Shown one piece after another: positions 44,016 to 59,534 of a stretch of 64,000 nt of DNA (positions are counted from its first letter, which is position 1; every line of letters starts with the position of its first letter). The notes under the pieces are model-generated. The model did not search any database. It was not told where the DNA came from and worked only from the letters and a program-made list of their open reading frames with translations. Source of the stretch: an uncultured Spirochaetaceae bacterium. GTDB lineage: Bacteria; Spirochaetota; Spirochaetia; Sphaerochaetales; Sphaerochaetaceae. The stretch spans positions 62,001-126,000 of the forward strand of contig CALXLH010000025.1 of NCBI GenBank assembly GCA_944389145.1, read 5' to 3'. The position numbers and the translations under genes were made by a program.

Positions 44016-44222
44016 GAACCACGATATTTCCTTTGGTATATTCTAAGCAAGTTTCATCGAATTTACAAAAGCAAATATAGACAGCAGCATGATTATTTAG
44101 GACTCTGCCACGGCCGGGACCGGCAGGCAGGGAAAACCTTCTGGATCCTGATACATAGAGGCATCCCGCATGCCCGATCCTGAAGGCAGATGCAGGATTT
44201 GGACTCCTAAGCCTTAAAGAGC

Positions 44223-44777
44223 TCAGGATGCCCCGTCCGCTATTATCACAATGCCAAGGATCATAAGGACAGCAGGAACGGCTACTCGCTCATAGCGCCT
44301 TATCAGCCGGCCTATCGCATCCCTGCCTGATACGGCGTGCGCTATCATGCACCAGAGCGCCAGCATGATGATGAACACCACGGTCATCGTGATGATATCC
44401 CAGACATCATAGCCGGAGAGAAGCGGGATATACACGCCAAGGTTATCAGCACCGTTCGATATCGCAAGAAGCGCCGTCGGCATGATTCCAAGAGGGATAT
44501 CCTCCTCATCGAGCCCATCTTGCTTCAGGGCATATCGCACGCCAAGGATGATCGGAACGATGCCCAGCACCCATGAATAGCCTGACAGGATGAACGATGC
44601 GGCCCGGGAAGCAGCGATGCTAATAGCCAGGAGCGAAAGGACACCGATGTACTGCCCTGCCATCACACGGCCCTTATACCTAGGCCCGGCAGAGGCAAGC
44701 AGGATCGTCAAGATGAGGATATCATCGACATTCGTACCGGCAAATGCGGCAATCGACTGCAATACCGTATCAATCAT
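44223..44777 (-). CDS. CadD-like cadmium/cation transporter family protein
   Basis: A 184-residue inner-membrane protein with about five hydrophobic segments. FAGTNVDDILILTILLA at the N terminus is the characteristic CadD family segment with paired aspartates in a membrane helix; ALLAISNGADNLGVYIPLL near residue 105 repeats the theme with N-x-x-D-N. Members are linked to cadmium resistance or to export of cations or organic ions; substrate is unknown. The gene begins directly after the tyrS terminator, so it may depend on read-through. Confidence 0.8.
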   Translation of the reverse strand: MIDTVLQSIAAFAGTNVDDILILTILLASAGPRYKGRVMAGQYIGVLSLLAISIAASRAASFILSGYSWVLGIVPIILGVRYALKQDGLDEEDIPLGIMPTALLAISNGADNLGVYIPLLSGYDVWDIITMTVVFIIMLALWCMIAHAVSGRDAIGRLIRRYERVAVPAVLMILGIVIIADGAS

Positions 44778-44810
44778 GAGAAAAGGAAGCTGGCGGTCAT
44801 CACCGCCAGC
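44778..44810 (-). terminator. Terminator of the gltX-glyS-tyrS operon
   Basis: On the minus strand GCTGGCGGT-GATG-ACCGCCAGC is followed by TTCCTTTTCTC, immediately before the CadD-like start codon. Confidence 0.8.
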
Positions 44811-44817
44811 CTATGGA

Positions 44818-46068
44818 TCATTCAGGGATCACCCTCATAAAGCGCTTCTTGCCTGCCTTGAGCATGAACTCCCCATCGGCATCAGCATCAGCAAGCGTTA
44901 TCACGGCCTTTGGATCCGTGATCTTATTGCCATTCACCTCAGCGCCGCCCTGCGTCACAAGGCGCCTTGCCTCTCCGTTGGAAGGAGTAAGGCCGGAACG
45001 GGTGAAAAGCTCAAGCACTCCAACGCCGCTTTCGAATACGGACTTCTCTATAGAGATCGAAGGAACGCCATCCTTGCCGGAGGCACCGCCGGAAGCAAAG
45101 AGGGAACGAGCGGCGCTCCTCGCCTTCTCGGCCTCCTCCTCTCCATGGATGATCTTAGTCGTCTCGTAAGCCAGGCGCTCCTTTGCATCATTGATATTCC
45201 TCTTCGGATCCTCATACTCTGCGATCTCATCGAGATCCATGAACGTAAAGATCTTCATGAAGCGCACGGCATCGGCATCAGCCACATTCCTCCAGTACTG
45301 GAAGAAGTCATAAGGCGAATAGAGGTCAGGAGAAAGGAAGACCGCTCCCTTCTCGCTCTTGCCCATCTTCTTGCCATCAGCGCGCATGATGAGATTGAAC
45401 GTGAGGCCGTAGCACTGCTCTCCCCCCATCCTCTGGATAAGGTCGATTCCCGCAACGATATTACCCCACTGATCCGCGCCACCGATCTGCAGGCGGCATC
45501 CCGTGAGCTCATTGAGCATATGGAAGTCATAGGACTGCAGCAGCTGATAGTTGAACTCAATGAATGAGAGTCCCCGCTCAAGGCGCTGCTTTACCCCTTC
45601 GAAGGTCAGCATCCTGTTGACGGAGAAGTATACGCCTACGTCACGGAGGAACTTGATGTAGTTCAGGTCGACAAGCCAGTCAGCATTATTCATCATCCTG
45701 GCCTTACCGACACCTTCCCCCGGGTTATCAGAGAAATCCACGATCTTACCGAGCTGAGTCTTTATCTTCTCCACATTGCTGTTGATATCCTCGACAGAGA
45801 GGATCTTCCTCATCTCCGTCTTGCCGGACGGATCACCGATGAGGCCGGTACCTCCTCCGACCAGCGCTATCGGAGCATGCCCCGCCTCCTGCAGATGATG
45901 CATCGCGAAGAACGGCACGATATGACCGACATGCAGAGATGGCCCCGTAGGGTCTACACCACAGTAGAAGGAGATCTTCTCCTTATCCATGAGATCCGAA
46001 AGTCCGTCGAAATCGGTACAGTCCTTAACGAAGCCGCGGTCTATGAGGGTCTGGAGGGCCTTGTTCAT
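44818..46068 (-). CDS. tyrS: Tyrosyl-tRNA synthetase
   Basis: A 416-residue class-I synthetase. YCGVDPTGPSLHVGHIVPFF contains the HIGH-type HVGH, YQLLQSYDFHML and GADQWGNI bind tyrosine and tRNA, KMGKSEKGAVFL is the KMSKS equivalent, and residues about 350-416 form an S4 RNA-binding domain (VTQGGAEVNGNKI). Its ATG shares the A of the glyS TGA stop, and AGGAGG lies five bases upstream. Last gene of a three-synthetase operon. Confidence 0.97.
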   Translation of the reverse strand: MNKALQTLIDRGFVKDCTDFDGLSDLMDKEKISFYCGVDPTGPSLHVGHIVPFFAMHHLQEAGHAPIALVGGGTGLIGDPSGKTEMRKILSVEDINSNVEKIKTQLGKIVDFSDNPGEGVGKARMMNNADWLVDLNYIKFLRDVGVYFSVNRMLTFEGVKQRLERGLSFIEFNYQLLQSYDFHMLNELTGCRLQIGGADQWGNIVAGIDLIQRMGGEQCYGLTFNLIMRADGKKMGKSEKGAVFLSPDLYSPYDFFQYWRNVADADAVRFMKIFTFMDLDEIAEYEDPKRNINDAKERLAYETTKIIHGEEEAEKARSAARSLFASGGASGKDGVPSISIEKSVFESGVGVLELFTRSGLTPSNGEARRLVTQGGAEVNGNKITDPKAVITLADADADGEFMLKAGKKRFMRVIPE

Positions 46069-47396
46069 CACACCCTCCTGTACTCTTTCATCTTCTGATG
46101 GATGAATGGGACGAGCTGATCAGCAGCCACCCTCTCCTGCTCCATGGAATCACGGAAGCGGACAGTGACCGTCTGGTCCTGCATCGTCTGGTAATCAACC
46201 GTCACGCAGTACGGCGTTCCGACCTCATCCATCCTCCTGTAGCGCCTGCCAACGGCTCCGCTCTGATCGTAGAAGGTGGTGAAATCGCTCCTGAGATCAT
46301 GCTCAAGCCTGGAGGCATACTCAGCAAGCCCATCCTTCTTCACGAGAGGAAGCACCGCGACCTTCACTGGCGCGATCTGCGGATGGAAATGCATGACCGT
46401 GCGGGTATCACCCTCTGGTGTCGCTTCCTCATCATATGCATCGCATAGCGCCATCAGCACGTTCCTGGTAAGGCCGGCAGATGTCTCAACGACGTATGGG
46501 ATGTACCTCTCGTTCGTCTCAGGATCAAGATACGTGAGATCCTTGCCTGAGAACTTCTGATGCTGCGTCAGGTCATAGTCGGTCCTGGAATGCACGCCCT
46601 CAAGCTCCTGCCATCCCATCGGGAAGAGGAACTGGATATCATAAGCGTCCTTGGCATAGAAGGCAAGCTCATCCGGGCCATGCTGATGCCACCTGAGATT
46701 CTCCGGATGGATACCCATCTTCTTATAGAACTCCATCCTCTGCTCCCTCCAGTACGGGAACCACTGCTCATCAGTACCTGGCTTGCAGAAGAACTGCATC
46801 TCCATCTGCTCGAACTCACATGAACGGAAGATGAAGTTCTTTGTCGTGATCTCGTTGCGGAATGACTTTCCTATCTGGGCGATGCCGAAGGGGATCTTGA
46901 CGCGCGAGGACTGCAGGACGTTCTTGAAGTTCACATAGATGCCCTGCGCGGTCTCAGGACGAAGATATACCACCGATGCATCATCGGCGTTCGCCCCGAT
47001 ATGCGTCTGGAACATGAGGTTGAAGTTGCGAGGAGCCGTGAACGTACCCTTGTTCCCGCAGACGGGGCATGGAGCGTCCAGGTCGATCTGATCTGCACGG
47101 AAGCGTGACTTGCAGACCTTGCAGTCCACCATCGGGTCGGTGAAGTTCGAGACATGGCCCGAAGCCTCCCAGACGCGGGGATGCATCAGGATCGAGGCAT
47201 CGAGGCCCACGATGTTATCATGCATCTGCGTCATCTCCTTCCACCAGAAGTCACGGATGTTGTTCTTCAGCTCCACGCCCATCGGACCATAGTCATAGGC
47301 CCCGTTGAGCCCTCCATAGATCTCGCTGGACTGGAATATGAAGCCGCGGCGGCGGCAGAGAGATACGATCTTATCCATTGTTGCTGCTTCTGACAT
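46068..47396 (-). CDS. glyS: Glycyl-tRNA synthetase, alpha2 (eukaryote-like) type
   Basis: A 442-residue class-II synthetase of the single-chain homodimeric type. [21 protein letters not shown] opens the catalytic fold, CKVCKSRF...CPVCGNKG is a four-cysteine zinc knuckle near residue 90, [14 protein letters not shown] is motif-2 related and [22 protein letters not shown] follows; the C terminus is the anticodon-binding domain ([16 protein letters not shown]). The frame is open 19 codons upstream into gltX, but GAGGAGAAT at the gltX stop fits the chosen ATG. Confidence 0.96.
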
Positions 47397-47397
47397 A

Positions 47398-48876
47398 TCA
47401 ATTCTCCTCAAGTATGGTAAGGCCGCGATGGAGACGTCTCTCAGTCTCCTCAAGGCCGATCAGGTCGATCGAATCGAACAAGGGAAGCGATACCGTCGAA
47501 TTGGTTATGGCGACGCGTATCGGCTGGAACACGCCAGCGACCTTGATCGAAAGCTCGGATGCAAGGGCGGAAAGCTCCGTCTCTATCTCCTCATGGCTCT
47601 TTCCATCCCTCAGGCCGGAGAGGAGGATAGCAGAGCCCTTCCTAAGTGCCTCCGCAGTCTTCTCCAGATCAGAGCCCTTGCCGACATATACCGTCTTATC
47701 CATGACAGGCTCATCCCGGAAGATGAACGCCGTAAGAGGCACGACATCAGAGAGGACCTTCATCCTCTCCTTGACCGGAGGCACGATGCGCGAAACCAAT
47801 GCGCTCTCCTCAGCAGTCAGAGGATCATGGATGAAGCCGGCTTCCTGCAGGTATGGGGTTATGAGGGAAGCGATACGTTCATCCGAGGCCGCCCTTATAT
47901 ACTGACCGTTGAACCAGTCAAGCTTCTTGTAATCGAATACGGCCGGCGACTTGTGGATATTCTCCAGCTTAAAGCACCTCTCAAGCTCCTCCTTGGTGAA
48001 GAACTCCGTAGAGCCGTCAAGGGACCAGCCGACAAGCGTGACATAGTTGATGATAGCCTCCGGAAGGTAGCCCTTGGCCCGGAAATCGCGGACTGCGGTA
48101 GAACCATGGCGCTTAGAAAGCTTCTGTCCGTCCTTGCCCATCACCATCGGCAGATGGCAGTACTGGGGAACCTCCCATCCGAACGCATGGTAGAGAAGCA
48201 CATGAAGCGGCCCCGACGGGATCCACTCCTGAGCCCGCATGATGTGCGTGATATGCATCAGATGATCATCGATCACGTTAGCCAGATGGTAAGTCGGGAA
48301 GCCATCGCTCTTGAGGATGATGGGATCGGGAGAGATATCGCGGTTACGCCTCGTGATATCGCCCATGAGGATATCATGGAAGGTCGTCTTGCCCTCTGTC
48401 GGAACGCGGAGGCGTATGACCGGCCTTATGCCCTGGGCCTCAAGCTCCGCCCGCTCCTCTGCCGTGAGATTGGCGCAGTGCCTGTCATATCCCTGATACT
48501 CGCTCTTGGACTCAGCCTGCTCCTTGCGTAGCGCCTCAAGACGCTCAGGCGAGCAGTAGCAATAATATGCCTTACCCTCAGCGACAAGCTGCTCGGCGTA
48601 CTTCTTATAGATATCGAAGCGCTCCGACTGGATATAAGGGCCATAATCACCGCCTACGACAGGGCCTTCATCCCACTTTACTCCAAGCCATTCCAGCGTG
48701 CTGTAGAGATCTTCAAGCGACTCATCGCTGTAGCGTTCCCTGTCCGTATCCTCGACGCGGAGTATGAATTTCCCACCGGAGGATCTTGCGAAGAAATAAT
48801 TGAATAGCGCAGTACGTATTCCGCCTATATGCTGCAGCCCTGTCGGTGACGGGGCATAGCGAACGCGAACTTCCAT
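47398..48876 (-). CDS. gltX: Glutamyl-tRNA synthetase
   Basis: A 492-residue class-I synthetase. [21 protein letters not shown] holds the HIGH motif, [13 protein letters not shown] follows, and [13 protein letters not shown] is the KMSKS loop near residue 250. The C-terminal helical part binds the anticodon. AAGGAGAAGG lies before the start. It leads the gltX-glyS-tyrS operon; the glyS ATG comes one base after its stop codon. Confidence 0.97.
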
Positions 48877-48901
48877 TTCCTTCTCCTTAGATTGACGCCT
48901 A

Positions 48902-48930
48902 ATCTTATTATCTTTGCCCGTGATTTACAA
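48902..48930 (-). promoter_or_regulatory. Promoter of gltX-glyS-tyrS
   Basis: On the minus strand TTGTAA, a 17-base spacer and TAAGAT precede gltX by about 25 bases; the -35 overlaps the stop codon of the hydrolase gene. Confidence 0.5.
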
Positions 48931-49764
48931 CTCAGAGAACCAGTCCAGCACAGCCTTGACGGCCTTATCCTCCCCCTCCTTATCGCGATCATAGAACGGG
49001 AAGTGCGTGCACTCGTCGATCTTCACGAGGCGATGCTCGCATGAAAGCGTCCTGTCCAGAAGCCGCGCAGGCCCAGGACCGACCACGAGATCCTCTCCTC
49101 CGGCGATGATAAGCGTCGGAGCATCGATGCTGGGGGCCTTGCGCCCGGCCTCATGCATAAGGCGCAGAAGCTCGCAGCTCTGCCTTATGTAGTTCCATGA
49201 CCAGTATTCCCGGCCAAGATATGCGTCATCGGCAGGCGCATCCTCGTAATACAGGACATACGACGGATCGGAATGCCATTCCTTAGGGATCCTCCTCCGG
49301 ATAAGCGAAAGCGCCTTCAGGGACAGAGGAGGCTTCTTATCAGAGACTGCAGGCGCAGCCAGGACGATCCTGTCGAAATGGACGCTTCCGGAGACAAGCA
49401 TAAGCAGCGCTGTTCCCATCGAATGACCGACGGCATGAAGCGTCGCATAACGCTTTCTGAGATCCCCTGCCGCATTCGCAGCGACGGCAAGCCAGTCCCG
49501 TCCAGAGGATCTTGCGAAATCCTCACCGGTCGTTCCGCATCCGGGAAGGCGAGGGACATAGACATCGAAGCCATGATCGAAGAGATCGCGGGCAGGTCGC
49601 ACGAGCTCCCCGGGATATCCGGCATATCCATGGATCAGCAGCACGGCCTTATCAGAACCACCCTTATGGGCAAGCGTGAACGGCCGGGCAGCCTTGCAGG
49701 GGGCAGTCCGATCCTGATACGCCCCGTCATACCATGAAAGTGGCACGGAATAGCGGTAGACCAT
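48925..49764 (-). CDS. Alpha/beta hydrolase, carboxylesterase/monoglyceride-lipase type
   Basis: A 279-residue cytoplasmic serine hydrolase. VLLIHGYAGYPGELVRPAR forms the oxyanion turn, HAVGHSMGTALL carries the nucleophile serine, LIIAGGEDLVVG the aspartate and IDECTHFPFYD the histidine. It resembles YvaK/Est30-like esterases that cleave short-chain or monoacyl esters. Its ATG shares the A of the TGA stop of the membrane LuxR gene, so the two are coupled; the hydrolase may process a ligand related to that regulator, though this is speculative. Confidence 0.85.
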   Translation of the reverse strand: MVYRYSVPLSWYDGAYQDRTAPCKAARPFTLAHKGGSDKAVLLIHGYAGYPGELVRPARDLFDHGFDVYVPRLPGCGTTGEDFARSSGRDWLAVAANAAGDLRKRYATLHAVGHSMGTALLMLVSGSVHFDRIVLAAPAVSDKKPPLSLKALSLIRRRIPKEWHSDPSYVLYYEDAPADDAYLGREYWSWNYIRQSCELLRLMHEAGRKAPSIDAPTLIIAGGEDLVVGPGPARLLDRTLSCEHRLVKIDECTHFPFYDRDKEGEDKAVKAVLDWFSEL

Positions 49765-50666
49765 CACCAGGATGCCTCCTGAAGGAGATTCAGAAGATCT
49801 ATGCGCGACCTGACCTCCGTCTTGGCGAATATGTTGGCAATGTGGTTATTCACCGTATTGACCGAGATATTAAGCTCGGATGCGATCTCCTTATTCGTAA
49901 GTCCCTTCTTTATCAATGCGATCACCTCGTATTCACGCTCGGTGATATGGAAGCGCTCCTGCACGTCCTCGAAGGATATCCCATCCTTCGCAGGCTTATC
50001 CTGATCGGAGGATGCGTCGAGGTGCGCGATGGCTATGAAGAGGAATACGAGTATGGCTATCGTATACGAAAGCGATACAACCGATATCGATATCCCCCTG
50101 AGCCAGGGGAAGATCATGGAGAATACGACGATGGGGAGCATGGCGAATGAGATTATCACCATGGTACGGCACATCGTGCGGACAGAGGCATCCATGATCC
50201 TCTTCCACTCAGAGAACATCACGATGATGCAATAGAGGACCACGAGAGTCCAGATCGCGTACTGGAATATCGAGGAGATGGCGTTCTTCGTGGCAATCCA
50301 GATAATCGAGTCCGCAAGATAAAGCACGCCGGCAAGGAATGCCAGCGCACGCTCTCCCTTCCCTATCGGACGCGCGATCACCCAGTTGCAGAAGAACGGA
50401 ATCATCGAGAGGATGAACGTGGAATCAAGCACCAGGAGTATCTCCCAGATCAGATGCAGGACGAACCGGACCGTCCCGTCGAATGCAAGATAGGAGTACT
50501 CATCAAGAGCGAAGGCCACGACGGCTCCAAGGAGCGTCGCGGTAAAGACAACGCAGGTGCGCGACCATGTGTATCGCGCCCTGCGGTTCCATACGATTGA
50601 CAAGGCCAGGTCCATGCTGACGATGGCCAGGGCAATCAGGCTTATAAGAAGAGGGACAGCCTCCAT
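49764..50666 (-). CDS. Membrane-bound LuxR-type transcriptional regulator
   Basis: A 300-residue protein with about six to seven hydrophobic helices over residues 5-220 and a C-terminal GerE/LuxR helix-turn-helix near 240-298: FHITEREYEVIALIKKGLTNKEIASELNIS then VNTVNNHIANIFAKTEVRSR. Such one-component regulators sense a membrane or extracellular signal and act from the membrane. No receiver domain is present. It starts a few bases after the RloB-like gene and is coupled to the hydrolase. Its targets are unknown. Confidence 0.83.
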   Translation of the reverse strand: MEAVPLLISLIALAIVSMDLALSIVWNRRARYTWSRTCVVFTATLLGAVVAFALDEYSYLAFDGTVRFVLHLIWEILLVLDSTFILSMIPFFCNWVIARPIGKGERALAFLAGVLYLADSIIWIATKNAISSIFQYAIWTLVVLYCIIVMFSEWKRIMDASVRTMCRTMVIISFAMLPIVVFSMIFPWLRGISISVVSLSYTIAILVFLFIAIAHLDASSDQDKPAKDGISFEDVQERFHITEREYEVIALIKKGLTNKEIASELNISVNTVNNHIANIFAKTEVRSRIDLLNLLQEASW

Positions 50667-50669
50667 CAG

Positions 50670-51302
50670 CTACCTTCGCACCTTCTGGTTGTGGGACATA
50701 TCCGCGGTTCCGCAGATCGCGGTGATATCCTCATTCAGAGAGGGCATGGTCGTAGCCTCAAGGCCCGTCGCAGCCTTGGCGAGGGTATTGTAGTTACGGG
50801 CGTTGATGTCAGCGGTGGCATGGCGCGGGAAGAGACGGATATGGGTGTTCAGTCCCTTCGTGAGGAAATACTCCGGGGTCATCTCGAATCCTGGTAGAGC
50901 CTCCCCCAGCCTAGCCTCAAGCGGCGCGATATCAGAGACATATGATGAAGGAGCGCCGAGATGGAACACGAACCAGAGGTCGAACCTCGGATTGATCCAG
51001 CAGAGCCTGATCTTCTTCTTCTCTGTGTACTCCTCCATCGCCTTGATCTCGTCAACGCTCGTTCCGATATCCTCGAAGCCGAAGAGGGCCCACGCGGAAT
51101 CGAACTTCCCATGATTGCGCTCACGGGCGGTGAAATCGATAAGTCCCTTGAGATCCTTTCCCTCAGGAGCCTTCACGACGGTAAGATTGACATAGCGGCA
51201 GTCCTTTCTCATCTGAGAGAAGTAGAGGGCTTCCGCCTCGGTCGCACAAACCAGAAGCATCGTCTGCTTCGGCGCTGTTATGTTCTTCTTGCGCTTGATC
51301 AT
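50670..51302 (-). CDS. RloB-like protein (AbiLii-type)
   Basis: A 210-residue protein of the RloB family (PF13707), a TOPRIM-like partner of RloA ATPases in abortive-infection loci such as AbiL. VCATEAEALYF near residues 18-28 replaces the usual CEG..TE..YF, retaining the glutamate; the acidic strand reads WALFGFEDI rather than the usual FDxD; INPRFDLWFVFHLGAP near 100 matches the NPxFELWxLxHF signature. GAGGAGAG lies before the start and the ATPase gene ends one base upstream. Divergent acidic residues leave nuclease activity in doubt. Confidence 0.75.
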   Translation of the reverse strand: MIKRKKNITAPKQTMLLVCATEAEALYFSQMRKDCRYVNLTVVKAPEGKDLKGLIDFTARERNHGKFDSAWALFGFEDIGTSVDEIKAMEEYTEKKKIRLCWINPRFDLWFVFHLGAPSSYVSDIAPLEARLGEALPGFEMTPEYFLTKGLNTHIRLFPRHATADINARNYNTLAKAATGLEATTMPSLNEDITAICGTADMSHNQKVRR

Positions 51303-51303
51303 C

Positions 51304-52587
51304 TTATCTCTCCTCCCCTTCAGCTTCCTTCACCTCAGGCTCGACAGGCGTGCCATCATGGACGAAGTAGAACTCGCTCGTGATCGGAAGGGCACCATAT
51401 ACACCCTGCATGTAGCGCTGCGTGGCAGGAATCTTGCCGCGCGCTCCCTTGAAGTCCGAAAGCGAGTAATATACGGTAGAGCTTTCCTGGTCCTTCTGAG
51501 CGAACCATACGGCATCACGGCGAAGGAGCCCTTCCTTGAGAAGCGAAGGATTGCAGTCAACGACAAGCATCTGGCTATCCTTATCGCAGTTCTCGAAGAT
51601 CTCGACGAGATGGCACAGGATGTCCGGATGCAGAAGCTGGCCGAAATCATCTATGACGAGGGTCTTGCCGGTTATGAATGCCTCGAAGAAGGCAAAGCCG
51701 ATGACCGTGAGGCGGCGCAGCGACAGCGACTCGCCTGCGAAGATGTTGGCATAACCCTCGGCCTTCTTATCGTTGACGTAGATATGAGTGAACCTCAGAT
51801 GATCCTCACCCTGCTCATTCGTCCTGACCTCGATCCTGTTTATATCCGTGATATCGAGAGCCCAGAGATAGTTCAGGATCTGCTCACCCCAGCCTGGATG
51901 GGCCTTGAGCATATCGCAGGCATACTGCTCTGCCTTGGATGATACTCCCATCGGGAGGATATGCAGCGTCTTCTCGAACCATGTATAAAGCTCGAGCGAC
52001 GTCTGGCCACCCTTGCGGGCCGAGCCGGCGAGGAACGTCCTGTTCTCTGGAAGCTTGGCAGCCTGCCTCTTCTTCTCTCCCCTGTAGAGCTTGCCGAAGC
52101 GGTATGAATAGAGGCCGTCCTCTCCGAGGATGCGCTCGAACATGAGCTTACGGGAATTGTTGATGATGTAGTAAAGGGATTCCTCGAAGATCCTCTCCTT
52201 GTTAGCCTTGAGCGTATAGCGGGCAATGGTGGTAGGGCTCTCCTCCGTCCCCTCGCCCTTATCGAGAAGCACTTCGATTGAGATCGTGGCTGGCGTGGCC
52301 TTATCTATGCCATAGGCGAACACGGTTCCCGTAAGCGCGCCCTGAAGCGGGTTCTCCGGGCCATCAGCGGCCATTACGATCCTCTTGAGGACTTCCAATG
52401 CCCTTACGAAAGAGCTTTTTCCCGCGCCGTTAGGTCCGATGATGGCGCTCGTCTTGATTACCTTGAGGTGGTCATTTACCTCCACGAGCTTCGACGCAGG
52501 GAGCCTTGAATCCTTGACAGCCTGGAAGCTGATGGTCTGAGGTGACTTTACGGACTTGAAGTTCGCAATTGTCATATTTAGCAGCAT
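51304..52587 (-). CDS. RloA-like AAA ATPase (AbiLi-type)
   Basis: A 427-residue ABC-like/OLD-type ATPase. MTIANFKSVKSPQTISF is the typical start of SMC-like AAA_21 proteins, AIIGPNGAGKSSFVRAL the Walker A near residue 50, AGESLSLRRLTVIGFAFFEA a signature-like region and LVIDDFGQLLHPDILCHLVEIF the Walker B near 320, where Asp-Asp takes the place of Asp-Glu. AGGAGG lies five bases before the start. With the RloB-like gene one base downstream it forms a putative phage-defence pair. Confidence 0.82.
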   Translation of the reverse strand: MLLNMTIANFKSVKSPQTISFQAVKDSRLPASKLVEVNDHLKVIKTSAIIGPNGAGKSSFVRALEVLKRIVMAADGPENPLQGALTGTVFAYGIDKATPATISIEVLLDKGEGTEESPTTIARYTLKANKERIFEESLYYIINNSRKLMFERILGEDGLYSYRFGKLYRGEKKRQAAKLPENRTFLAGSARKGGQTSLELYTWFEKTLHILPMGVSSKAEQYACDMLKAHPGWGEQILNYLWALDITDINRIEVRTNEQGEDHLRFTHIYVNDKKAEGYANIFAGESLSLRRLTVIGFAFFEAFITGKTLVIDDFGQLLHPDILCHLVEIFENCDKDSQMLVVDCNPSLLKEGLLRRDAVWFAQKDQESSTVYYSLSDFKGARGKIPATQRYMQGVYGALPITSEFYFVHDGTPVEPEVKEAEGEER

Positions 52588-52634
52588 AAGCTCCTCCTTA
52601 TTGATGAGCCGCAGCCCACCGTTTCTGATTCCCG

Positions 52635-52663
52635 ATTATAGCAAAGCGGGAGAAAAGGGGCAA
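52635..52663 (-). promoter_or_regulatory. Promoter of the RloA/RloB unit
   Basis: On the minus strand TTGCCC, a 17-base spacer and TG-C-TATAAT (extended -10) lie 47 bases before the ATPase start, leaving a normal leader with AGGAGG. Confidence 0.7.
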
Positions 52664-52794
52664 AAAATACGGCAAAGGCTGCGACATCACTCATCGGTAG
52701 CCCGTAACGTATATTCTATCCCCTAAAAATGATGGAATATATCGCTATATTACTGCATTTCATCAGTGATAATCTAGCTAAAGGGGGTATCGTA

Positions 52795-52821
52795 ATGAAA
52801 AAATATCTCAAAATTACTTAA
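52795..52821 (+). other. Eight-codon open frame with a strong ribosome site
   Basis: ATG to TAA encodes MKKYLKIT. AAAGGGGGT lies six bases before the ATG and GATAAT about 25 bases before that. It overlaps the 3' end of the gene on the other strand. It may be a leader peptide, a gene remnant or chance; no longer continuation is visible in any frame. Confidence 0.25.
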
Positions 52822-53179
52822 TATTATTTAAGTATTTCTGGATATCCTCGGCAGAGGAACAGGTCCTGCCCTCCTTCCATGGGCCGGAGGAGATGACGAT
52901 CAGCAAGGGAGTCCCAGGCTCTGATAGATGATCGGAAACCCAATATACAGCGTTCTCCTTCACGCTCTCCGCCACAGATGTGAACCCCGAAAGCACGATC
53001 ACGGAGAACGATGATGAGCTTATCCAGCGCTTTAGCAGCTCCATGCCGCCAGAAGCGCTCGCAGCCTCCTTCGTCTCGCGGCAGCAGCCGCATGGAATGC
53101 CTGAGAATACGAGCTCGGCAGAATGGTAGCCGCCGAGATCCGGAATCATCGATTCATCTGCGTAGAGTATCGCTGCCAT
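52814..53179 (-). CDS. Small uncharacterised protein with a CGCC motif
   Basis: A 121-residue protein with no recognised family. GIPCGCCRETKEA near residue 30 has a cysteine pattern that could bind metal or act in thiol exchange; the rest alternates strands and helices (FSVIVLSGFTS, PLLIVISSGPWKEG) like a small Rossmann or thioredoxin-like fold. An upstream GTG is open, but GAGG fits the chosen ATG, three bases after the lipoprotein stop. It is the last gene of the PdxA-like/lipoprotein operon. Confidence 0.6.
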   Translation of the reverse strand: MAAILYADESMIPDLGGYHSAELVFSGIPCGCCRETKEAASASGGMELLKRWISSSSFSVIVLSGFTSVAESVKENAVYWVSDHLSEPGTPLLIVISSGPWKEGRTCSSAEDIQKYLNNIK

Positions 53180-53181
53180 GA

Positions 53182-54285
53182 TCACCTCAGTAGATAGTCA
53201 TATATAGATATGCCGGGATCGATCTGGACCTCCGTGCCATGCGCTGCGCTGACAAGCTGTTCCTGGGCCTCGGCATCGCGGCGCTGCACGGTACGGATAT
53301 CATCATAGAGGGTACGCACGCGGGAATCCGCTGTCTCGCCAAGCATGCCAGAAAGAATCGAAAGGCTGCCATCGAAATCACCGGTAGAGGCGGTAAGGAG
53401 CGCCGCATTATAGCCTGAGGGGATGTGATGGGAGCTCTCCCATAGCCCCTCAAAGCGCTCCGCAGCCTCACGAGTCTTGCCATCAGCGGCGAGGTCATAG
53501 GCCGCCTCTGCCGCCTCAAGCTTAGGCTTGTTATCCATAAGCGTCACGGTATAGCTCCTAACTGTCGGAGCGAACTGCCTCCTCAGGCCCTCGTTGAAGC
53601 CCCGGATCATGCGGCGGAACAGCTGTTCAACGCCATCGAACCTGGGCCAGTCAGGATCGACCGTCTCCGAGCGCTCTGCCGAATCGACAAAGGTCTTCTG
53701 TGCGACCACGCGCTCTGTCTGGGTATCTATGATGGTGATAGAATACCTTATCGAGGCCTTCTGCCTCACGGTGTAGTCATACCAGTATACGCTCACATAC
53801 TCATTGCAGCTATCGTCCCAGACAAGCTCTGACTGACGGCGGGAGAAGACAGTCTCATCGACATCCATGGATTCTATGCGCGGTATCATGACAGCATCGT
53901 ATCCGGCGTCATTAAGCCTCTTTGATACCATATAGCCTGAGTTGACGATCGATGCGGTCATCTGCATGTCAAGGAGGTTGTAGTATCCGGTATCACGCAG
54001 CGTGGCGTAAAGCTGATCGGAAGCATATGAGGCAACATCGCGGGAGAGAGATGATGCGGCATAGGAGGATCTGATCCGAAGCGTTCCTGCCATGAAGTCG
54101 AGCCCCCTGACCCATGTGGGACCGGGGAGGCTTCCCCGGTACGGCACCACAGGCATCACCGCAAGGTTGCGGTATGCCGACATGTTCACCTCGGAAGGAT
54201 AAAGATAATCAATGGAAACGCTGGTCTGGCAAGATGCCAAGAGCAGAACCACAGCCATTCCCAGTGCAAGAAGCAGCCGTCTCAT
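53182..54285 (-). CDS. Uncharacterised lipoprotein
   Basis: A 367-residue lipoprotein. MRRLLLALGMAVVLLLASC is a signal peptide ending in a lipobox with Cys19. The body begins NLAVMPV, a strand-helix start also seen in CsgG/DUF6340-type envelope proteins, and has a segment ITIIDTQTERVVAQKTF typical of those; a TPR-like helical part follows near residues 260-340. The start overlaps the PdxA-like stop by four bases (ATGA). The role is unknown; envelope location is well supported. Confidence 0.68.
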   Translation of the reverse strand: MRRLLLALGMAVVLLLASCQTSVSIDYLYPSEVNMSAYRNLAVMPVVPYRGSLPGPTWVRGLDFMAGTLRIRSSYAASSLSRDVASYASDQLYATLRDTGYYNLLDMQMTASIVNSGYMVSKRLNDAGYDAVMIPRIESMDVDETVFSRRQSELVWDDSCNEYVSVYWYDYTVRQKASIRYSITIIDTQTERVVAQKTFVDSAERSETVDPDWPRFDGVEQLFRRMIRGFNEGLRRQFAPTVRSYTVTLMDNKPKLEAAEAAYDLAADGKTREAAERFEGLWESSHHIPSGYNAALLTASTGDFDGSLSILSGMLGETADSRVRTLYDDIRTVQRRDAEAQEQLVSAAHGTEVQIDPGISIYDYLLR

Positions 54286-55295
54286 ACCATATAGCTCCTA
54301 TCAGAAAGCCTGAGTGCCTCGATCACCGCGGTTACCATCGGCTTGATGGTCACCCTGTCCTTACCCGCATCCTCCAGTCCCGCATCGCCTATTATGCCAA
54401 GGCGCAGGAACGGCAGTCCCCACGTCAGCATATAGGACTCATCAGGAGCGGCTGCGGCAGAGGCGGCGTAGCCAACGCCTGCCGTCATGACCAGCACGGA
54501 GGAGAATTCCCCCTTCGCGGCACGGCGGAAAAGCACCTCATGAGAGAATGGTCCCTCGACATCAACCCCTATCCGGCGGGCGACCTCGATTGCAGGGATG
54601 ATGAAATCCTCCTCCTCAGGGCCAGTCCACTCGCCGTCCCTGTCTACAGGATTTAGAGAACAGACTCCGATGGGCATATCGTGATCGAAGAAGCGCGATA
54701 TCCTCAGCGCGTCTATCGACACAAGCGCCTCGATCACGTTCTCTCTGGTTATCGCGGAAATAGCCTCCGAGAGCGCACGGCGATGGGTCAGCCCGAACAT
54801 GTTGATCTTCCCTGCGACAATCATGTTCATCAGGCGCGAGGAGGATGCGAAGCGCGAGAGAAGCGAGAATACGGACCTCTCATCATGGCCCGCTGCCTCA
54901 AGGGCCCTGGCGGAGACAGGACTCGTCACGAGGGAATCGGCAAGCCCGTTCTGTATGATCGACACGGCATGCTCAAGGGCCCTGAACGAGGCCTCCCCCG
55001 TCTCTGCGGAGACCTTTCCATATTCAAAGGAAGAGAGGTCGATGGCCGAGGAACGGAAGAAGATGAACCTGATGCCGTCCTCCTCTGCCCTGCGGAGATC
55101 CTCCTCGTCCTCGGCAAGATACCCAAAGCAGGGATCTATCGACAGATCGGAGGCGGTATGGCTGAAGACCCCCTCATCACCCGTTACGATGATTCCGCCG
55201 TCAAAGGTATCTGAAAGCGCCTTCGTTGCCTTGAGTATCATCTCAGGAGATGTGCCAGCAGGCTCTCCCATGGAAAGGACTATGTATCTAAGCAT
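54282..55295 (-). CDS. Divergent PdxA-family protein
   Basis: A 337-residue member of the 4-hydroxythreonine-4-phosphate dehydrogenase fold, which in true PdxA makes a pyridoxal precursor. VLSMGEPAGTSPEMILKA and LADSLVTSPVSARALEAAG match the family well. One metal histidine is kept (LTHRRAL), but the LNPHAGE segment reads SLNPVDRDGE and the YHDQG loop is replaced by TAGVGYAASAAAAPDE, losing two of three metal ligands. It is therefore probably not a standard PdxA. It leads an operon with a lipoprotein and a small CGCC protein. Confidence 0.75.
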   Translation of the reverse strand: MLRYIVLSMGEPAGTSPEMILKATKALSDTFDGGIIVTGDEGVFSHTASDLSIDPCFGYLAEDEEDLRRAEEDGIRFIFFRSSAIDLSSFEYGKVSAETGEASFRALEHAVSIIQNGLADSLVTSPVSARALEAAGHDERSVFSLLSRFASSSRLMNMIVAGKINMFGLTHRRALSEAISAITRENVIEALVSIDALRISRFFDHDMPIGVCSLNPVDRDGEWTGPEEEDFIIPAIEVARRIGVDVEGPFSHEVLFRRAAKGEFSSVLVMTAGVGYAASAAAAPDESYMLTWGLPFLRLGIIGDAGLEDAGKDRVTIKPMVTAVIEALRLSDRSYMV

Positions 55296-55301
55296 GATGC
55301 C

Positions 55302-55307
55302 ATGATA
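55302..55307 (-). promoter_or_regulatory. Leaderless-type -10 box of the PdxA-like gene
   Basis: On the minus strand TATCAT lies six bases before the ATG. No Shine-Dalgarno and no good -35 are visible. Its upstream DNA overlaps the divergent promoter of the acidic small protein. Confidence 0.45.
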
Positions 55308-55327
55308 CCACAGAGAACGGTTAGATG

Positions 55328-55333
55328 TATAAT
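55328..55333 (+). promoter_or_regulatory. Leaderless-type -10 box of the acidic small protein
   Basis: A perfect TATAAT lies seven bases before the ATG, with no recognisable -35. It is separated by only 20 bases from the opposing -10 box. Confidence 0.5.
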
Positions 55334-55340
55334 CAAAGGT

Positions 55341-55502
55341 ATGATCGATCCAGATGATTTATTCGATGGCCTTGATGAAGAGGATGCTGATGGCGAGGAG
55401 CTTTTCTCATTCATTCCGAAGTTGCCCGGCGAGGATCAGTACGATGACGGCGAGAGCGAATACGGAGATCTCGACGATGAGGAATTCGATATAGATTTCT
55501 AA
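55341..55502 (+). CDS. Highly acidic 53-residue protein
   Basis: A very small protein, MIDPDDLFDGLDEEDADGEE onward, with more than a third Asp and Glu and almost no basic residues; it ends FDIDF. No family is recognised. The frame is open 13 codons upstream, but a perfect -10 box there sets the start. Such acidic peptides can be DNA mimics, chaperone-like or disordered linkers; there is no direct evidence for any. It is divergent from the PdxA-like gene and followed by the trpX-like promoter. Confidence 0.55.
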   Translation: MIDPDDLFDGLDEEDADGEELFSFIPKLPGEDQYDDGESEYGDLDDEEFDIDF

Positions 55503-55520
55503 TGTTTCTATAAAAAGTAT

Positions 55521-55546
55521 CTTGACTGCAGATGCGATACTATATA
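55521..55546 (+). promoter_or_regulatory. Promoter of the first binding protein gene
   Basis: TTGACT followed after 15-17 bases by TATAAA/TAAAGT, about 20 bases before the AGGAGG and ATG of the first TrpX-like gene. Confidence 0.5.
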
Positions 55547-55568
55547 AAGTAACTTCAGGAGGAAATCC

Positions 55569-56543
55569 ATGAAGAAGGCTGCATTGTTGATCGTAATCGC
55601 CATAATCGCATTCTCGCTGCTTCCGGCACAGGGCGTGAGGGAAGAGGAAGATAGCGGCATGCTGAGGATCGGGATATCGAAGATGCTTGCGCACCCTGCG
55701 CTCGATGCGATAGAGGAAGGGATAAGGGACTATCTTGCGGAGAGAGGGATCGAGGCGGAATATGATATCCAGAACGCCAATGGCGAGATAAGCACGGCAG
55801 CATCGATCGCGCAGCTCTTCGACACGGAGGATATGGACCTTGTCATCGGCATAGCGACCCCGACCTCACAGGCCCTGGCAAATACGTTCACCGACATACC
55901 TGTGGTCTTCTCCTCCGTAACCGATGTTCCAGCCGCAGGGCTGGATGGGATAGCCAATGTCTGCGGTGTCTCCGACGTGGTACCGTTCCAGGAGCATTTG
56001 GATCTAATAGAGCGTCTGACAGGCGCGAGGCGTATCGGCATGGTCTATACCTCTGGGGAGGCTAACGGGATATCCCTGATGGAGGGGATGAGGAAGACAG
56101 CGGAGGAGCACGGGGTCGAGCTGATCGCGGCCTCCGTCGCTAACTCAGCGGAGGTCAGGACAGCCGCGGCATCCATAATCGACAGGGTGGATGCGATGTA
56201 TGTGGCAACGGACAATACGGTCGTGTCAGCGCTGCCTGCCCTCTCAGACGTCTGCAGCTCTGCCTCCGTCCCGCTGTTCAGCGCCGATACCACATCAGCA
56301 TTCGGCACCGATGTCCTGATAGCAGGAGGATTCGATTACTACGACTCAGGCCGCCTTACGGGAGAGATCGTGGAGCGCATCCTTTCCGGCGAGAGCCCTG
56401 AGGATATAGGGACCGTATACCTGACATCGCTTGAGCTTTATATCAATGTATCGGTCGCGGAGAGGCTTGGCATCACGATACCGGAGGAAATGCTGGCCGA
56501 TGCGGCATATATCATCAGGGATGGAGAGGATATTTCGGAATAA
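55569..56543 (+). CDS. TrpX-like ABC transporter substrate-binding protein, first copy
   Basis: A 324-residue exported binding protein of the ABC_sub_bind (PF04392) family. The first 20 or so residues (MKKAALLIVIAIIAFSLLPA) are a signal peptide without a cysteine lipobox. GISKMLAHPALDAIEEGIRD, DIQNANGEISTAASIAQ and GIATPTSQALANTFTDIPVVF are family segments. AGGAGG lies six bases before the start. The paralogue, a permease and an ATPase follow in order, as in trpXYZ clusters predicted to import tryptophan; the ligand has not been shown. Confidence 0.82.
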   Translation: MKKAALLIVIAIIAFSLLPAQGVREEEDSGMLRIGISKMLAHPALDAIEEGIRDYLAERGIEAEYDIQNANGEISTAASIAQLFDTEDMDLVIGIATPTSQALANTFTDIPVVFSSVTDVPAAGLDGIANVCGVSDVVPFQEHLDLIERLTGARRIGMVYTSGEANGISLMEGMRKTAEEHGVELIAASVANSAEVRTAAASIIDRVDAMYVATDNTVVSALPALSDVCSSASVPLFSADTTSAFGTDVLIAGGFDYYDSGRLTGEIVERILSGESPEDIGTVYLTSLELYINVSVAERLGITIPEEMLADAAYIIRDGEDISE

Positions 56544-56579
56544 ACATTGAATATTTATTCAAACCGTGCATACCGAATG

Positions 56580-56628
56580 TTGAACCTTTCAGGAGCATTC
56601 TTATAATATTCAGTTAACTGAACGGAGG
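56580..56628 (+). promoter_or_regulatory. Promoter and candidate TrpR operator of the second trpX-like gene
   Basis: TTGAAC, a 16-base spacer and TATAAT are followed immediately by TTCAGTTAACTGAA, a perfect 14-base palindrome at 56609-56622, then GGAGG. The AGTTAACT core equals the centre of the E. coli trp operator (CTAGTTAACTAG). Placement at the transcription start would allow simple repression. Confidence 0.6.
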
Positions 56629-56637
56629 TTGTTCCAA

Positions 56638-57642
56638 ATGAAGAAACTGATAGCTATGACGGCGATCCTCATCGCCTCATTCTCGCTCATCGCGGGAGGA
56701 GCAGGAGAAGCGACGGCAGATGACGGCTCTACCCTCATCGGTGTATCCAAGCTGCTTTCCCACGCAGCCCTCGATGCGGTTGAGCAGGGTATGCAGGACT
56801 ACCTGGCAACGACAGGTCTTCCTATAAGGTATGATTTCCAGAATGCCAACGGCGATATCTCGACATCGGCATCCATCGCGCAGCAGTTCGATAGCGAGAA
56901 CTGTGATATAGTGGTCGGAATCGGAACAGCCACGGCTCAGGCCCTGGCTAATGTCTTCACAGACCGTCCGGTGCTTTTCGCGGCAGTCACGGACCCTGCG
57001 GATGCCGGCCTCGTGGCAGACAACTACACAGCGGATCCAGAGTCGAACGTCTGCGGAGTCTCAGACATGAACCCTGTCGAGGCGCAGATCAGCCTCCTGG
57101 CGGAGATCACTGGCGCAAGGACGATCGGAAACGTCTATTCCTCAGGCGAGCAGAATGGCGTCGTGCTTATGGAACAGGCACAGGCCGCATGCGATAAGCT
57201 CGGGCTGGAGTTCGTGCCTGTAGCGATCGCGAACTCCTCCGAGGTCAGGATGGCCACGCAGTCGATCATCGACCGCGTCGATGCCGTATACATCGCAACG
57301 GACAACAACGTCATCTCAGCCATCGCCTCGGTAGACGATGTCTGCTCCGCAGCCGGCAAGCCGATGCTGGTAGCCGATCCATCAGGCATAGACGGACTGA
57401 ACTGCATGATCGCATGGGGATTCAACTACTACTCCATCGGAACGGCGCTCGGCGAGCAGATCGAGGCTATCATAAACGGATCCGAGCCAGGTCCGCTCGG
57501 AACGGTCATCCTCTCAGATCCGGGCGACTTCGAGCTTTGGTTCAATCTCGATACTGCCGAGGAGCTTGGATTCACCATTCCGCAGGAGTATCTGGACACG
57601 GCACAGGTCATCATCAAGGATGGCGTGAAGACAGAGAGGTGA
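56638..57642 (+). CDS. trpX: TrpX-like ABC transporter substrate-binding protein, second copy
   Basis: A 334-residue paralogue of the preceding gene with the same segment order: GVSKLLSHAALDAVEQGMQD, DFQNANGDISTSASIAQ and GIGTATAQALANVFTDRPVLF. MKKLIAMTAILIASFSLIAG is the signal peptide. An in-frame TTG three codons upstream is rejected because GGAGG (nine bases away) fits the ATG. It has its own promoter with a TrpR-like palindrome and a hairpin after its stop, so the binding protein is probably made in excess over the membrane subunits. Confidence 0.83.
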   Translation: MKKLIAMTAILIASFSLIAGGAGEATADDGSTLIGVSKLLSHAALDAVEQGMQDYLATTGLPIRYDFQNANGDISTSASIAQQFDSENCDIVVGIGTATAQALANVFTDRPVLFAAVTDPADAGLVADNYTADPESNVCGVSDMNPVEAQISLLAEITGARTIGNVYSSGEQNGVVLMEQAQAACDKLGLEFVPVAIANSSEVRMATQSIIDRVDAVYIATDNNVISAIASVDDVCSAAGKPMLVADPSGIDGLNCMIAWGFNYYSIGTALGEQIEAIINGSEPGPLGTVILSDPGDFELWFNLDTAEELGFTIPQEYLDTAQVIIKDGVKTER

Positions 57643-57661
57643 TATTCTGCTATCATCGTGA

Positions 57662-57690
57662 AGGCCGTCGCTTGGCGGCCTTCTCTATTT
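57662..57690 (+). terminator. Intercistronic hairpin between trpX-like and permease genes
   Basis: GAAGGCCG and CGGCCTTC pair around an eight-base loop, followed by TCTATTT. A partial terminator here would lower expression of the permease and ATPase relative to the binding protein. Confidence 0.6.
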
Positions 57691-57701
57691 GAGGTTTTGA
57701 A

Positions 57702-58640
57702 ATGATTGAAGGTATTTTCGTTGAAGGTCTGATCTTCTCGATCATGGTCCTAGGCATATTGATAAGCTACAGGATCCTGGACTTTGCAGACCTTACATGC
57801 GATGGATCGGTGGCAACCGGAGCCGCCGTGGCAACGATGTGCATAGTGAACGGGCTCGGCATAACGGTAGGCCTCGTGCTTTCGTTCCTTGTCGGAGTGC
57901 TTTGCGGCCTCGTGACCGCTACGATACACAACAAGCTCCATATCCCGGGGCTGCTGGCGGGAATCCTCACGATGACGATGCTCTACTCCATCAACCTGAG
58001 GATACTCGGGAACAAGGCAAACGTGTCCCTTGTCCGCGTTGATACGCTCTACAGGCTCTTTCCTGATGCCTTCCCCTTCCTCTCGCAGGCAATGGCTGCG
58101 CTGGCAGGCACGCTGATCTTCGTCCTTGCCGTCAAGGTAATCATGGACCTCTTCTTCCGCACGGACCTCGGGCAGGCGCTCGGCGCCCTAGGCGGAAACG
58201 AGCAGGTGATCCTCTCCCAGGGCATGAACCCCGCGCTTCTCAAGCTGATCGGAGTCGGACTCTCAAACGGACTGATCGCACTCTCCGGCGGACTTCTGGC
58301 ACAGTATCAGGGATTCGCTGACGCGAACCTGGGACAGGGAATGGTCGTCCAGGGCCTGGCCGCGATAATGATCGGAGAGTTCCTCTTCTCCTCGAACAGG
58401 ATCTCGCTGATAACCCTCCGCGCAATCCTCGGAGGCATCATATACAAGGCACTGATGTTCCTCGGCAGGAAGTACGGGTACCTCATCGGCATAACGCCAA
58501 ATGACTTCAAGCTGCTTACCGGCATACTTGTCATCATCTCGCTCACCATCGCGCAGATGAGGATCATGGCCTCTGACAAGGGCGCGAGGAAGAAGGCGCT
58601 GGAGAAGACGCTTGGACACAAGGAGGCCGAGAATGCTTGA
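57702..58640 (+). CDS. trpY: ABC transporter permease, TrpY-like
   Basis: A 312-residue inner-membrane permease of the BPD_transp_2 (PF02653) family with eight or nine hydrophobic segments, beginning IFVEGLIFSIMVLGILISYRIL. ADLTCDGSVATGAAV near residue 28 and ALGGNEQVILSQGMNPALLKLIGVGLSNG near 165 are family segments. GAGG lies before the start. Its last eight bases overlap the ATPase gene. It forms the membrane channel of the putative tryptophan importer. Confidence 0.85.
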   Translation: MIEGIFVEGLIFSIMVLGILISYRILDFADLTCDGSVATGAAVATMCIVNGLGITVGLVLSFLVGVLCGLVTATIHNKLHIPGLLAGILTMTMLYSINLRILGNKANVSLVRVDTLYRLFPDAFPFLSQAMAALAGTLIFVLAVKVIMDLFFRTDLGQALGALGGNEQVILSQGMNPALLKLIGVGLSNGLIALSGGLLAQYQGFADANLGQGMVVQGLAAIMIGEFLFSSNRISLITLRAILGGIIYKALMFLGRKYGYLIGITPNDFKLLTGILVIISLTIAQMRIMASDKGARKKALEKTLGHKEAENA

Positions 58641-59421
58641 GATCAGCCATGTCACAAAGGTATTCTTCCCGGGAACGGTCAATGAGAAGGTCGCGCTGGA
58701 GGATATAAACCTCACCGTAAGCGATGGAGATGTCATCTGCGTCATCGGATCCAACGGCTCCGGAAAATCCACGCTATTCAACATGATCGCAGGAACATTC
58801 CCTGTCACATCCGGAACCATCAGGCTCAACGGCAAGGACATAACGAACGCTCCTGAATATAAGAGATCATTCATGATCGGCCGCATCTTCCAGGACCCGA
58901 CGAAGGGAACGAGCGCCAACATGTCGGTGCAGGATAACATGAACCTTGCCTCCTCCAAGGGAATGAAGGGACTCAGGTTCGGACTTACGAAGGAAAGGAA
59001 GGCCGCATTCCGCGAGATGCTCAAGACCATCGGGCTTGAGGACAGGATGGAGGATAACGTAGGTCTTCTCTCCGGCGGGCAGAGGCAGGCACTCACGCTG
59101 CTGATGACAACGCTCTCCCACCCTTCCCTCATGCTGCTTGATGAGCATACTGCCGCGCTTGATCCGAGGAACGCGGAGATCGTCATGGATCTTACAAAGG
59201 AGTACATCGAGCGAGACAGGCTCACGGCGATGATGGTCACCCATAACATGCAGTTCGCCATCGACTACGGCAACAGGCTGATCATGATGGATGAAGGCCA
59301 TATAATACTCGACGTCAAAGGCGAGGATAAGTCCCGTCTTACCGTCCAGGGACTCGTAGATGAGTTCAGGAAGATAAGGAAGAAGGAATTCGCCTCGGAC
59401 GAAGGCCTCCTGACCGAATAG
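58633..59421 (+). CDS. trpZ: ABC transporter ATP-binding protein, TrpZ-like
   Basis: A 262-residue ATPase. VIGSNGSGKSTLFNMIAG is Walker A near residue 40, GRIFQDPTKGTSANMS the Q-loop, LLSGGQRQALTLLM the signature near 145 and LMLLDEHTAALDPRN Walker B; VTHNMQFAIDYG carries the switch histidine. Upstream TTG extends the frame, but AGGAGG six bases before the ATG sets the start. It completes the importer encoded just upstream. Confidence 0.92.
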   Translation: MLEISHVTKVFFPGTVNEKVALEDINLTVSDGDVICVIGSNGSGKSTLFNMIAGTFPVTSGTIRLNGKDITNAPEYKRSFMIGRIFQDPTKGTSANMSVQDNMNLASSKGMKGLRFGLTKERKAAFREMLKTIGLEDRMEDNVGLLSGGQRQALTLLMTTLSHPSLMLLDEHTAALDPRNAEIVMDLTKEYIERDRLTAMMVTHNMQFAIDYGNRLIMMDEGHIILDVKGEDKSRLTVQGLVDEFRKIRKKEFASDEGLLTE

Positions 59422-59446
59422 GCAGGGACCTCTATTCAAGACACGC

Positions 59447-59475
59447 TGATGGCCTCCTCAGGAAGGGGGCCATCA
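59447..59475 (+). terminator. Possible terminator after the ABC transporter operon
   Basis: TGATGGCC and GGCCATCA pair around a 13-base loop shortly after the ATPase stop. No T-tract follows, so it may instead be a processing or stability hairpin. Confidence 0.4.
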
Positions 59476-59534
59476 ATGCTTCCGGCGGCCTCTGCTCATC
59501 TGTCCAAAGAAGGCGCTTAACCTCGATTTAACAC

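Follow-up and report, generated by a model that had tools for sequence, protein, structure and literature searches.

A near-universal RloAB (AbiL-type) gene pair of Sphaerochaetaceae with replaced catalytic residues in both proteins: probable domestication of a defence module

RloB proteins are described in the available text of PMC10440598 as relatives of the OLD_TOPRIM domains and of AbiLii. Among the known systems, AbiL/RloAB stands closest to the gene pair reported here, which occupies positions 50670–52587 on the minus strand of a stretch of 64,000 nucleotides from an uncultured Spirochaetaceae bacterium (contig CALXLH010000025.1, positions 62,001 to 126,000; the whole stretch is called the window below). 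The pair comprises an RloA-like (AbiLi-type) ABC/AAA_21 ATPase of 427 amino acids (51304..52587) and an RloB-like (AbiLii-type) protein of 210 amino acids (50670..51302), separated by 1 nt. It shares with AbiL/RloAB the ATPase-then-RloB order and the profile matches, and a Lactococcus phage pair annotated as abortive phage resistance protein is similar, its RloA being 24% identical to the window RloA. Unlike AbiL/RloAB, however, the window pair and its near relatives (hereafter, the derived pair) lack the Toprim Glu and, nearly always, the first Asp of the DxD motif in RloB, bear replacements of the Walker-B Glu, the signature Gly and the switch His in RloA, and are near-universal in one bacterial family, where they are inherited vertically.

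The AriB-type partner of the PARIS system is DUF4435. PARIS (AriA/AriB), a class 4 split system of the OLD type, resembles the window pair in its separate genes for the ATPase and the Toprim protein, and the window RloA gives a weak AriA match (PADLOC, 5.4e-11); AriB, however, requires its Toprim Glu, since the E26A variant does not cleave tRNA (PMC12409363, in the text available), whereas derived RloB has Ala at the position that would correspond to it. At E-values up to 1, the window RloB matched only Pfam RloB and PADLOC AbiLii, the presence of an AriB model in the libraries being unchecked. The Toprim domains of the class 2 OLD nucleases and of Gabija GajA take the top five places in the structural comparison of the RloB model (see below), but these enzymes are single chains as opposed to the two proteins found here. 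Cran1 of Sulfolobales is, according to the accessible part of PMC12796447, an OLD-family protein involved in the cell cycle and apparently serving the cell and not its defence; still, this is one archaeal protein retaining every active-site residue and operating as a nickase with ATPase activity, whereas here a bacterial two-gene pair features altered sites. As to the ATPase, the degenerate sites of ABC (ATP-binding cassette) transporters such as ABCB2/B3 and Pdr5 are hallmarked, as far as the available text of PMC7756269 goes, by signature changes, a Walker-B Glu-to-Asp replacement and, often, an altered H-loop His, and they hydrolyze ATP slowly. The same three places are changed in RloA. In these transporters, however, the degenerate site is one of two in an asymmetric assembly, whereas RloA lacks hydrophobic segments and is encoded by a single gene, so both of its sites would be degenerate if it formed a homodimer.

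Overall, the pair is of a known kind by homology and new by its chemistry and inheritance. Probably, it represents a domesticated RloAB/AbiL-type defence module turned into a housekeeping, ATP-binding and nuclease-impaired one. Its assignment by homology to RloA/RloB follows from the adjacency of the open reading frames and from the profile matches: PADLOC recognized RloA as AbiLi (6.1e-60) and RloB as AbiLii (6.9e-7), Pfam returned AAA_21 for the former (1.2e-13) and RloB for the latter (1.5e-9; 38.7 bits vs. a cut-off of 31.5). NCBIfam yielded for the pair only weak matches far below its cut-offs, and sequence searches of the PDB yielded no match.

The catalytic positions were compared over all available rows, i.e., 99 derived and 32 canonical RloB and 96 derived and 32 canonical RloA sequences, with near-identical rows each counted and RloA fragments taken in; the derived rows are those of the Sphaerochaetaceae family plus four rows from two related families, f61 and f62. 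The residue picture was the same in a smaller, diversity-based selection of 66 RloB and 65 RloA rows, whose canonical part consists of 12 rows out of a set of 30 together with L161 and L162, without L035. The window RloB reads LLVCATEAEALYF where canonical relatives have xEGxTE..YF, and ALFGFED where they have FDxD; the Toprim Glu is replaced by Ala20 and the DxD by Gly75-Phe-Glu77. The Toprim Glu was found in 0/94 family and 0/4 f61/f62 rows, hence in none of the 98 readable derived sequences, against 30 of the 31 readable canonical ones (the sole exception, L035, has Gln). The first Asp of DxD is kept in 2/95 family and 0/4 f61/f62 rows (2/99 derived rows, L142 and L151) against 32/32 canonical rows, and the second Asp in 57/95, 0/4 and 32/32 rows, respectively, the window having Glu there. 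A reading of the window made from its sequence alone (hereafter, the sequence-only reading) had reported that this RloB lost the usual CEG and FDxD residues while keeping an NPxFxLW signature. For CEG, the loss of the Glu was borne out throughout the lineage; the loss of FDxD was borne out for the first Asp, the second position not being uniformly lost. The NPxFxLW stretch is indeed present (NPRFDLW) but it is no strict signature, since Asn occurs in 4 and Pro in 9 of the 14 canonical rows at NPxF.

The derived RloB has acquired conserved motifs of its own, FSQMRKDCRYxN and a C-terminal CGxADMSHNQK. Two cysteines, C35 (44/48 family rows) and C197 (47/48), also occur in all four f61/f62 rows and in none of the 14 canonical ones; possibly, they form a metal site or a disulfide. 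The loci L077–L156 were retrieved with the peptide patterns QMRKDCR[YF] and [IV]CGxADMSH, so the invariance of the motifs among them partly reflects the retrieval. The loci of the genus found by plain similarity, the window counted, display the N-terminal motif in 30/30 and the Toprim Glu in 0/30 cases, and the outer members found by profile show more variation.

The changes in RloA run parallel to those in its partner. In the window protein, Walker A (GPNGAGKS) is intact, the signature reads ESLSLRRL, Walker B VIDDFG and the switch region VVDCNP. The Walker A Lys is present wherever it is readable (90 family, four f61/f62 and 30 canonical rows; 94/94 for the derived ones). By contrast with the Glu found in 32/32 canonical rows, Asp stands at the Walker-B position in 92/92 family and 4/4 f61/f62 rows, so the Walker-B Asp spotted by the sequence-only reading extends to all 96 derived sequences. 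Two further changes had escaped that reading, i.e., the signature Gly replaced by Ser in 92/92 family rows (Gly in 4/4 f61/f62 and 32/32 canonical rows), and the switch His replaced by Cys in 92/92 family rows and by Val in 4/4 f61/f62 rows, with His in 29/32 canonical rows and Gln in the other three. In f61/f62 the signature Gly is still in place, but the Toprim Glu is already gone, as are the Glu of Walker B and the His of the switch, which hints at the order in which the changes took place. Of the four residues typical of a hydrolytic ABC site, the family RloA retains the Walker A Lys, and the other three are replaced. As judged from the alignments, the replacement residues are conserved like those of an active site.

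Six non-spirochaete controls were drawn from the 14 listed matches of plasmid and phage searches (Psychrobacter, Emticicia, Enterococcus, E. coli, Klebsiella and Lactococcus; plasmids or phages), and their RloA proteins have Gly, Glu and His at the signature, Walker-B and switch positions, respectively. In the five RloB proteins adjoining them, the Toprim Glu and also the first Asp are intact throughout; the second Asp is present in four, the E. coli plasmid protein having Glu at the second DxD position. The sequence-only reading would have been contradicted if most family members shared the substitutions; outside the lineage this is not the case, the canonical relatives from spirochaetes (L035 excepted for the Toprim Glu) and from other phyla keeping the Toprim Glu and the Walker-B Glu. 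For the same reason, the idea that the changes are a trait of all RloAB is ruled out. Against the 14 canonical RloA sequences of one alignment, the window RloA reaches only 22–27% identity, and the RloA-like matches in 143 plasmid and six phage records are all below 60% identity to it. A second RloB, canonical in its residues and with an adjoining RloA-like ATPase (GPNGGGKS), was spotted in the genome of the window itself (L054; G000:C14:37797-38348), where it offers an internal reference for the derived pair.

AlphaFold2 modeled both proteins with high confidence (predicted local distance difference test, pLDDT, 92.5 for RloB and 92.4 for RloA). In Foldseek, the RloA model resembled the heads of Rad50, PtuA and SMC, and for the RloB model no match reached E 0.001. 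A second look at RloB by structural alignment placed OLD/Gabija Toprim domains in the first five rows at Z 6.5–7.0 (<8), with unrelated folds at 6.3, a tie by the rule of the tool; therefore, the Toprim assignment comes mainly from the homology to RloB. Derived RloB probably keeps a Toprim-like fold. Residues 11..198 of the model align with 391..594 of 6nk8, and Ala20 would fall at the position of E400 of Bp OLD; in terms of that protein, as presented in the available text, the metal-A residues E400 and D455 would be replaced by Ala and Gly in the window RloB.

Within its family, the pair is nearly ubiquitous. RloB similarity searches found matches in 48/48 genomes of the genus, and a profile of 20 RloB sequences of the genus found them in 127/139 genomes of the family (72/75 of the good-quality ones), which we take to be Sphaerochaetaceae. 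Discarding the weak matches of G450 and G480 (E 1e-4) leaves strong RloB matches in 125/139 genomes, where those without fetched loci are classed as derived by E-value (4e-32 or better), with residues unread. Matches of RloA occur in 126/138 family genomes, or in 124 without G450 and G480, whose RloA matches are canonical-like (28–29% identity). Outside the family, the derived pair was found in 2/4 genomes of f61 (2/2 good-quality ones) and 2/2 of f62. The whole Pfam RloB family, this lineage counted, is present in 75/392 sampled genomes of the phylum. The named carriers include Sphaerochaeta, Bullifex porci, Candidatus Ornithospirochaeta and Candidatus Aphodenecus. Together with the synteny of the locus, such presence throughout the genus and in nearly all of the family is not the patchy, mobile distribution expected of defence systems.

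The pair also evolves like a resident of the chromosome. Its pairwise RloA distances correlate with those of GltX at r 0.92 (32 loci), and the ratios of nonsynonymous to synonymous substitution (dN/dS, Nei–Gojobori) amount to 0.018–0.061 for RloA, 0.036–0.114 for RloB and 0.040–0.077 for GltX; the values are rough, dS being about 0.7–2.2 for the three proteins, i.e., near saturation, and no value was obtained for 1/12 RloA, 2/12 RloB and 1/7 GltX pairs. In a tree of 81 RloA sequences (a quick maximum-likelihood search without bootstrap), 51 derived and 30 canonical sequences are split by a branch with a Shimodaira–Hasegawa-like approximate likelihood ratio (SH-aLRT) support of 100. The residue changes are a property of the lineage, not a quirk of a single sequence. 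A lone mutated or decaying copy was considered as well, and it is ruled out by the low dN/dS and the nearly invariant replacements.

The sequence-only reading left two options, either a variant defence subtype with a different chemistry or repurposing; the second is now better supported, and the first retains a small share of probability. According to this first option, the pair still protects from phages by abortive infection, with the replacement residues making up a new active site or with RloB acting as a non-nuclease, and it became fixed since it is very useful. The homology to AbiLi/AbiLii speaks for it, as do the replacements, which are nearly invariant like an active site (all three RloA replacements occur in 92/92 family rows, and the two RloB cysteines are also typical). 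Against it stand the near-universal retention at a single place beside gltX, the close correlation with GltX distances and the GltX-like dN/dS, all unlike mobile defence genes; the plasmid and phage records, whose matches all lie under 60% identity to the window RloA; and the separate canonical RloB in the same genome. We regard continued phage defence as unlikely. Repurposing is favoured over it because of the near-universal presence, the one syntenic place, the purifying selection and the catalytic replacement in both subunits.

Building on the residues, distribution, synteny and selection described above, the biochemistry, stoichiometry and function of the domesticated module can be sketched conditionally. 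RloA would dimerize on ATP like other ABC heads, since the Walker A Lys and, at the signature, Ser are kept. Given that its signature, Walker B (Glu to Asp) and H-loop deviate in the manner typical of degenerate ABC sites, it would hydrolyze ATP slowly or not at all and operate as a long-lived nucleotide switch or a scaffold. RloB, deprived of the Toprim Glu and, nearly always, of the first DxD Asp, would be a binding adaptor acting via its new conserved surfaces and no processive nuclease. The output would be a housekeeping one, most plausibly the control of envelope or polysaccharide together with a membrane LuxR sensor and a hydrolase. This is the weakest step, a lead taken from neighbouring genes, chiefly outside the family.

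The genes at the locus follow in the order RloA, RloB, seven-segment LuxR, hydrolase and gltX, the pair standing at the head of the row. The sequence-only reading had delimited the pair correctly and was also right in placing a membrane LuxR regulator and a hydrolase directly after it on the same strand. The former (49764..50666, minus strand; 300 amino acids, seven hydrophobic segments and a C-terminal GerE helix-turn-helix, Pfam 8.5e-17) starts 3 nt from RloB and overlaps by 4 nt the latter, an alpha/beta hydrolase of 280 amino acids (48925..49767, minus strand; Pfam Hydrolase_4, 1.7e-20). After a further 48 nt comes gltX (47398..48876, minus strand), a glutamyl-tRNA synthetase gene named from its sequence without a family search. 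This neighbourhood is conserved across the family and is no local accident: among the loci with enough flank (a gene being counted if it lies no more than 1.2 kb off its usual spacing; the window excluded and the canonical outgroup L161 included), LuxR stands beside the pair in 85/92, the hydrolase at its usual spacing in 77/89, gltX in 64/79 and glyS, also named from sequence, in 60/73. Upstream of the pair, a putative lipoprotein of 367 amino acids (53182..54285) was read from the sequence, with no Pfam match; a similar gene occurs in 82/101 loci, the window counted. An Rfam scan of 44000..60000 gave no match.

In the two related families, the neighbourhood takes a different form. All four f61/f62 loci (L157–L160) have a Wzz/BY-kinase-type gene and CpsB upstream, with CpsB directly before RloA, and a ManC-like gene lies further upstream in three of them, the fetched L157 stretch ending too soon. 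Pfam confirmed NTP_transferase, Wzz/GNVR and CpsB_CapC in L160, where LuxR-type and hydrolase genes lie upstream of them; in L159, the Wzz/BY-kinase gene is broken over several frames. Possibly, this arrangement represents the original operon. Within Sphaerochaetaceae, CpsB_CapC was found in 86/138 genomes and directly upstream of the pair in 73 of these 86; by loci, it adjoins the pair in 56/94 (the window, L161 and L162 counted). CpsB and Wzz strongly tend to go together: over 139 genomes, both occur in 81, CpsB only in 5, Wzz only in 7 and neither in 46. CpsB accompanies the derived pair in 82/125 genomes vs. 4/14 without it (p 0.009), and Wzz in 83/125 vs. 5/14 (p 0.04); both links are weak, the p values ignoring relatedness and the genomes outside the 138 (CpsB) and 137 (Wzz) searched being scored as absent. 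An obligate link to capsule synthesis is ruled out by the 37/125 derived-RloB genomes that have neither gene. One family genome (G443:C1) harbors six CpsB_CapC matches, none of which adjoins the derived pair.

Taken together, these findings allow for a fuller scenario of domestication, put forward as a tentative proposal which could well turn out otherwise. An ancestor of Sphaerochaetaceae and the two related families may have captured, on a single occasion, a toxin-like anti-phage pair. Both subunits would then have lost the nuclease and normal ATPase chemistry and gained new invariant sequence instead; the resulting nucleotide-locked switch, passed on vertically, would work with the membrane LuxR sensor, and originally also with a capsule-type operon of a tyrosine kinase and the CpsB phosphatase, to control the envelope.

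Two other functions were weighed. The pair could be a chromosome or cell-cycle factor like Cran1, with an SMC/Rad50-like ATPase head and a DNA-binding, Toprim-like partner, which agrees with the likeness of the RloA model to Rad50, PtuA and SMC heads and with the Cran1 precedent. Cran1, however, retains its catalytic residues and both activities (PMC12796447, as far as its available text goes), unlike the derived pair; the genes conserved beside it encode a regulator, a hydrolase, CpsB and tRNA synthetases; and the pair is missing from several small genomes, so this role is improbable. That an inactive pair enters mixed complexes with incoming mobile canonical RloAB and blocks their toxicity as a decoy or immunity factor is very improbable. 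In its favour, both subunits are altered together, with the ATP-binding motifs retained, and canonical RloB does occur within the same family and in the window's genome; against it, the identity of the window RloA to canonical RloA is low and the CpsB neighbourhood stays without account.

Several observations weigh against the domesticated, nuclease-impaired module as outlined here. Glu24 of RloB, which would equal E404 of Bp OLD, is kept in 43/48 family rows, and the second DxD Asp in 57/95; hence, residual nicking by derived RloB is possible. In Bp OLD itself, according to the available text of PMC6755086, the metal-A ligands are E400, D455 and D457; cleavage was not discernibly affected by single substitutions of metal ligands, and the triple metal-A mutant lost linear-DNA cleavage with some nicking left. 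Likewise, an Asp in Walker B need not abolish hydrolysis (PMC7756269, in the part available), and three of the 32 canonical RloA rows lack the switch His, too. Both genes are absent from 13 family genomes, 11 of which are 1.1–1.6 Mb in size (genera g4, g167, g169, g174 and g177), the other two being incomplete and belonging to g9; in G464, scored as lacking RloB, an RloA fragment was found at a contig edge. The pair is thus not universally essential. The partnership with the neighbours is also incomplete. In L164–L166, from the small-genome genus g8, LuxR and the hydrolase are missing beside the pair, RloA-RloB stand directly before gltX, and the three genomes have no LuxR match at all; conversely, LuxR has a match in 10 of the 13 genomes without the pair, and CpsB is present in three of these. 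Since the window's genome and 36 others keep derived RloB with neither CpsB nor Wzz, the capsule link is a matter of context and no requirement.

Domestication of defence proteins has often been suspected; to our knowledge, a two-gene defence pair in which the two partners have changed jointly and subsequently become fixed throughout a family of bacteria is unusual. Searches of the open-licence literature returned no description of the derived RloAB lineage and none of RloB in connection with Sphaerochaeta. Both window proteins match the PADLOC models of AbiL, so defence finders could score the locus as such a system. Should its function be found, the pair would represent a near-core module in an understudied family of spirochaetes.

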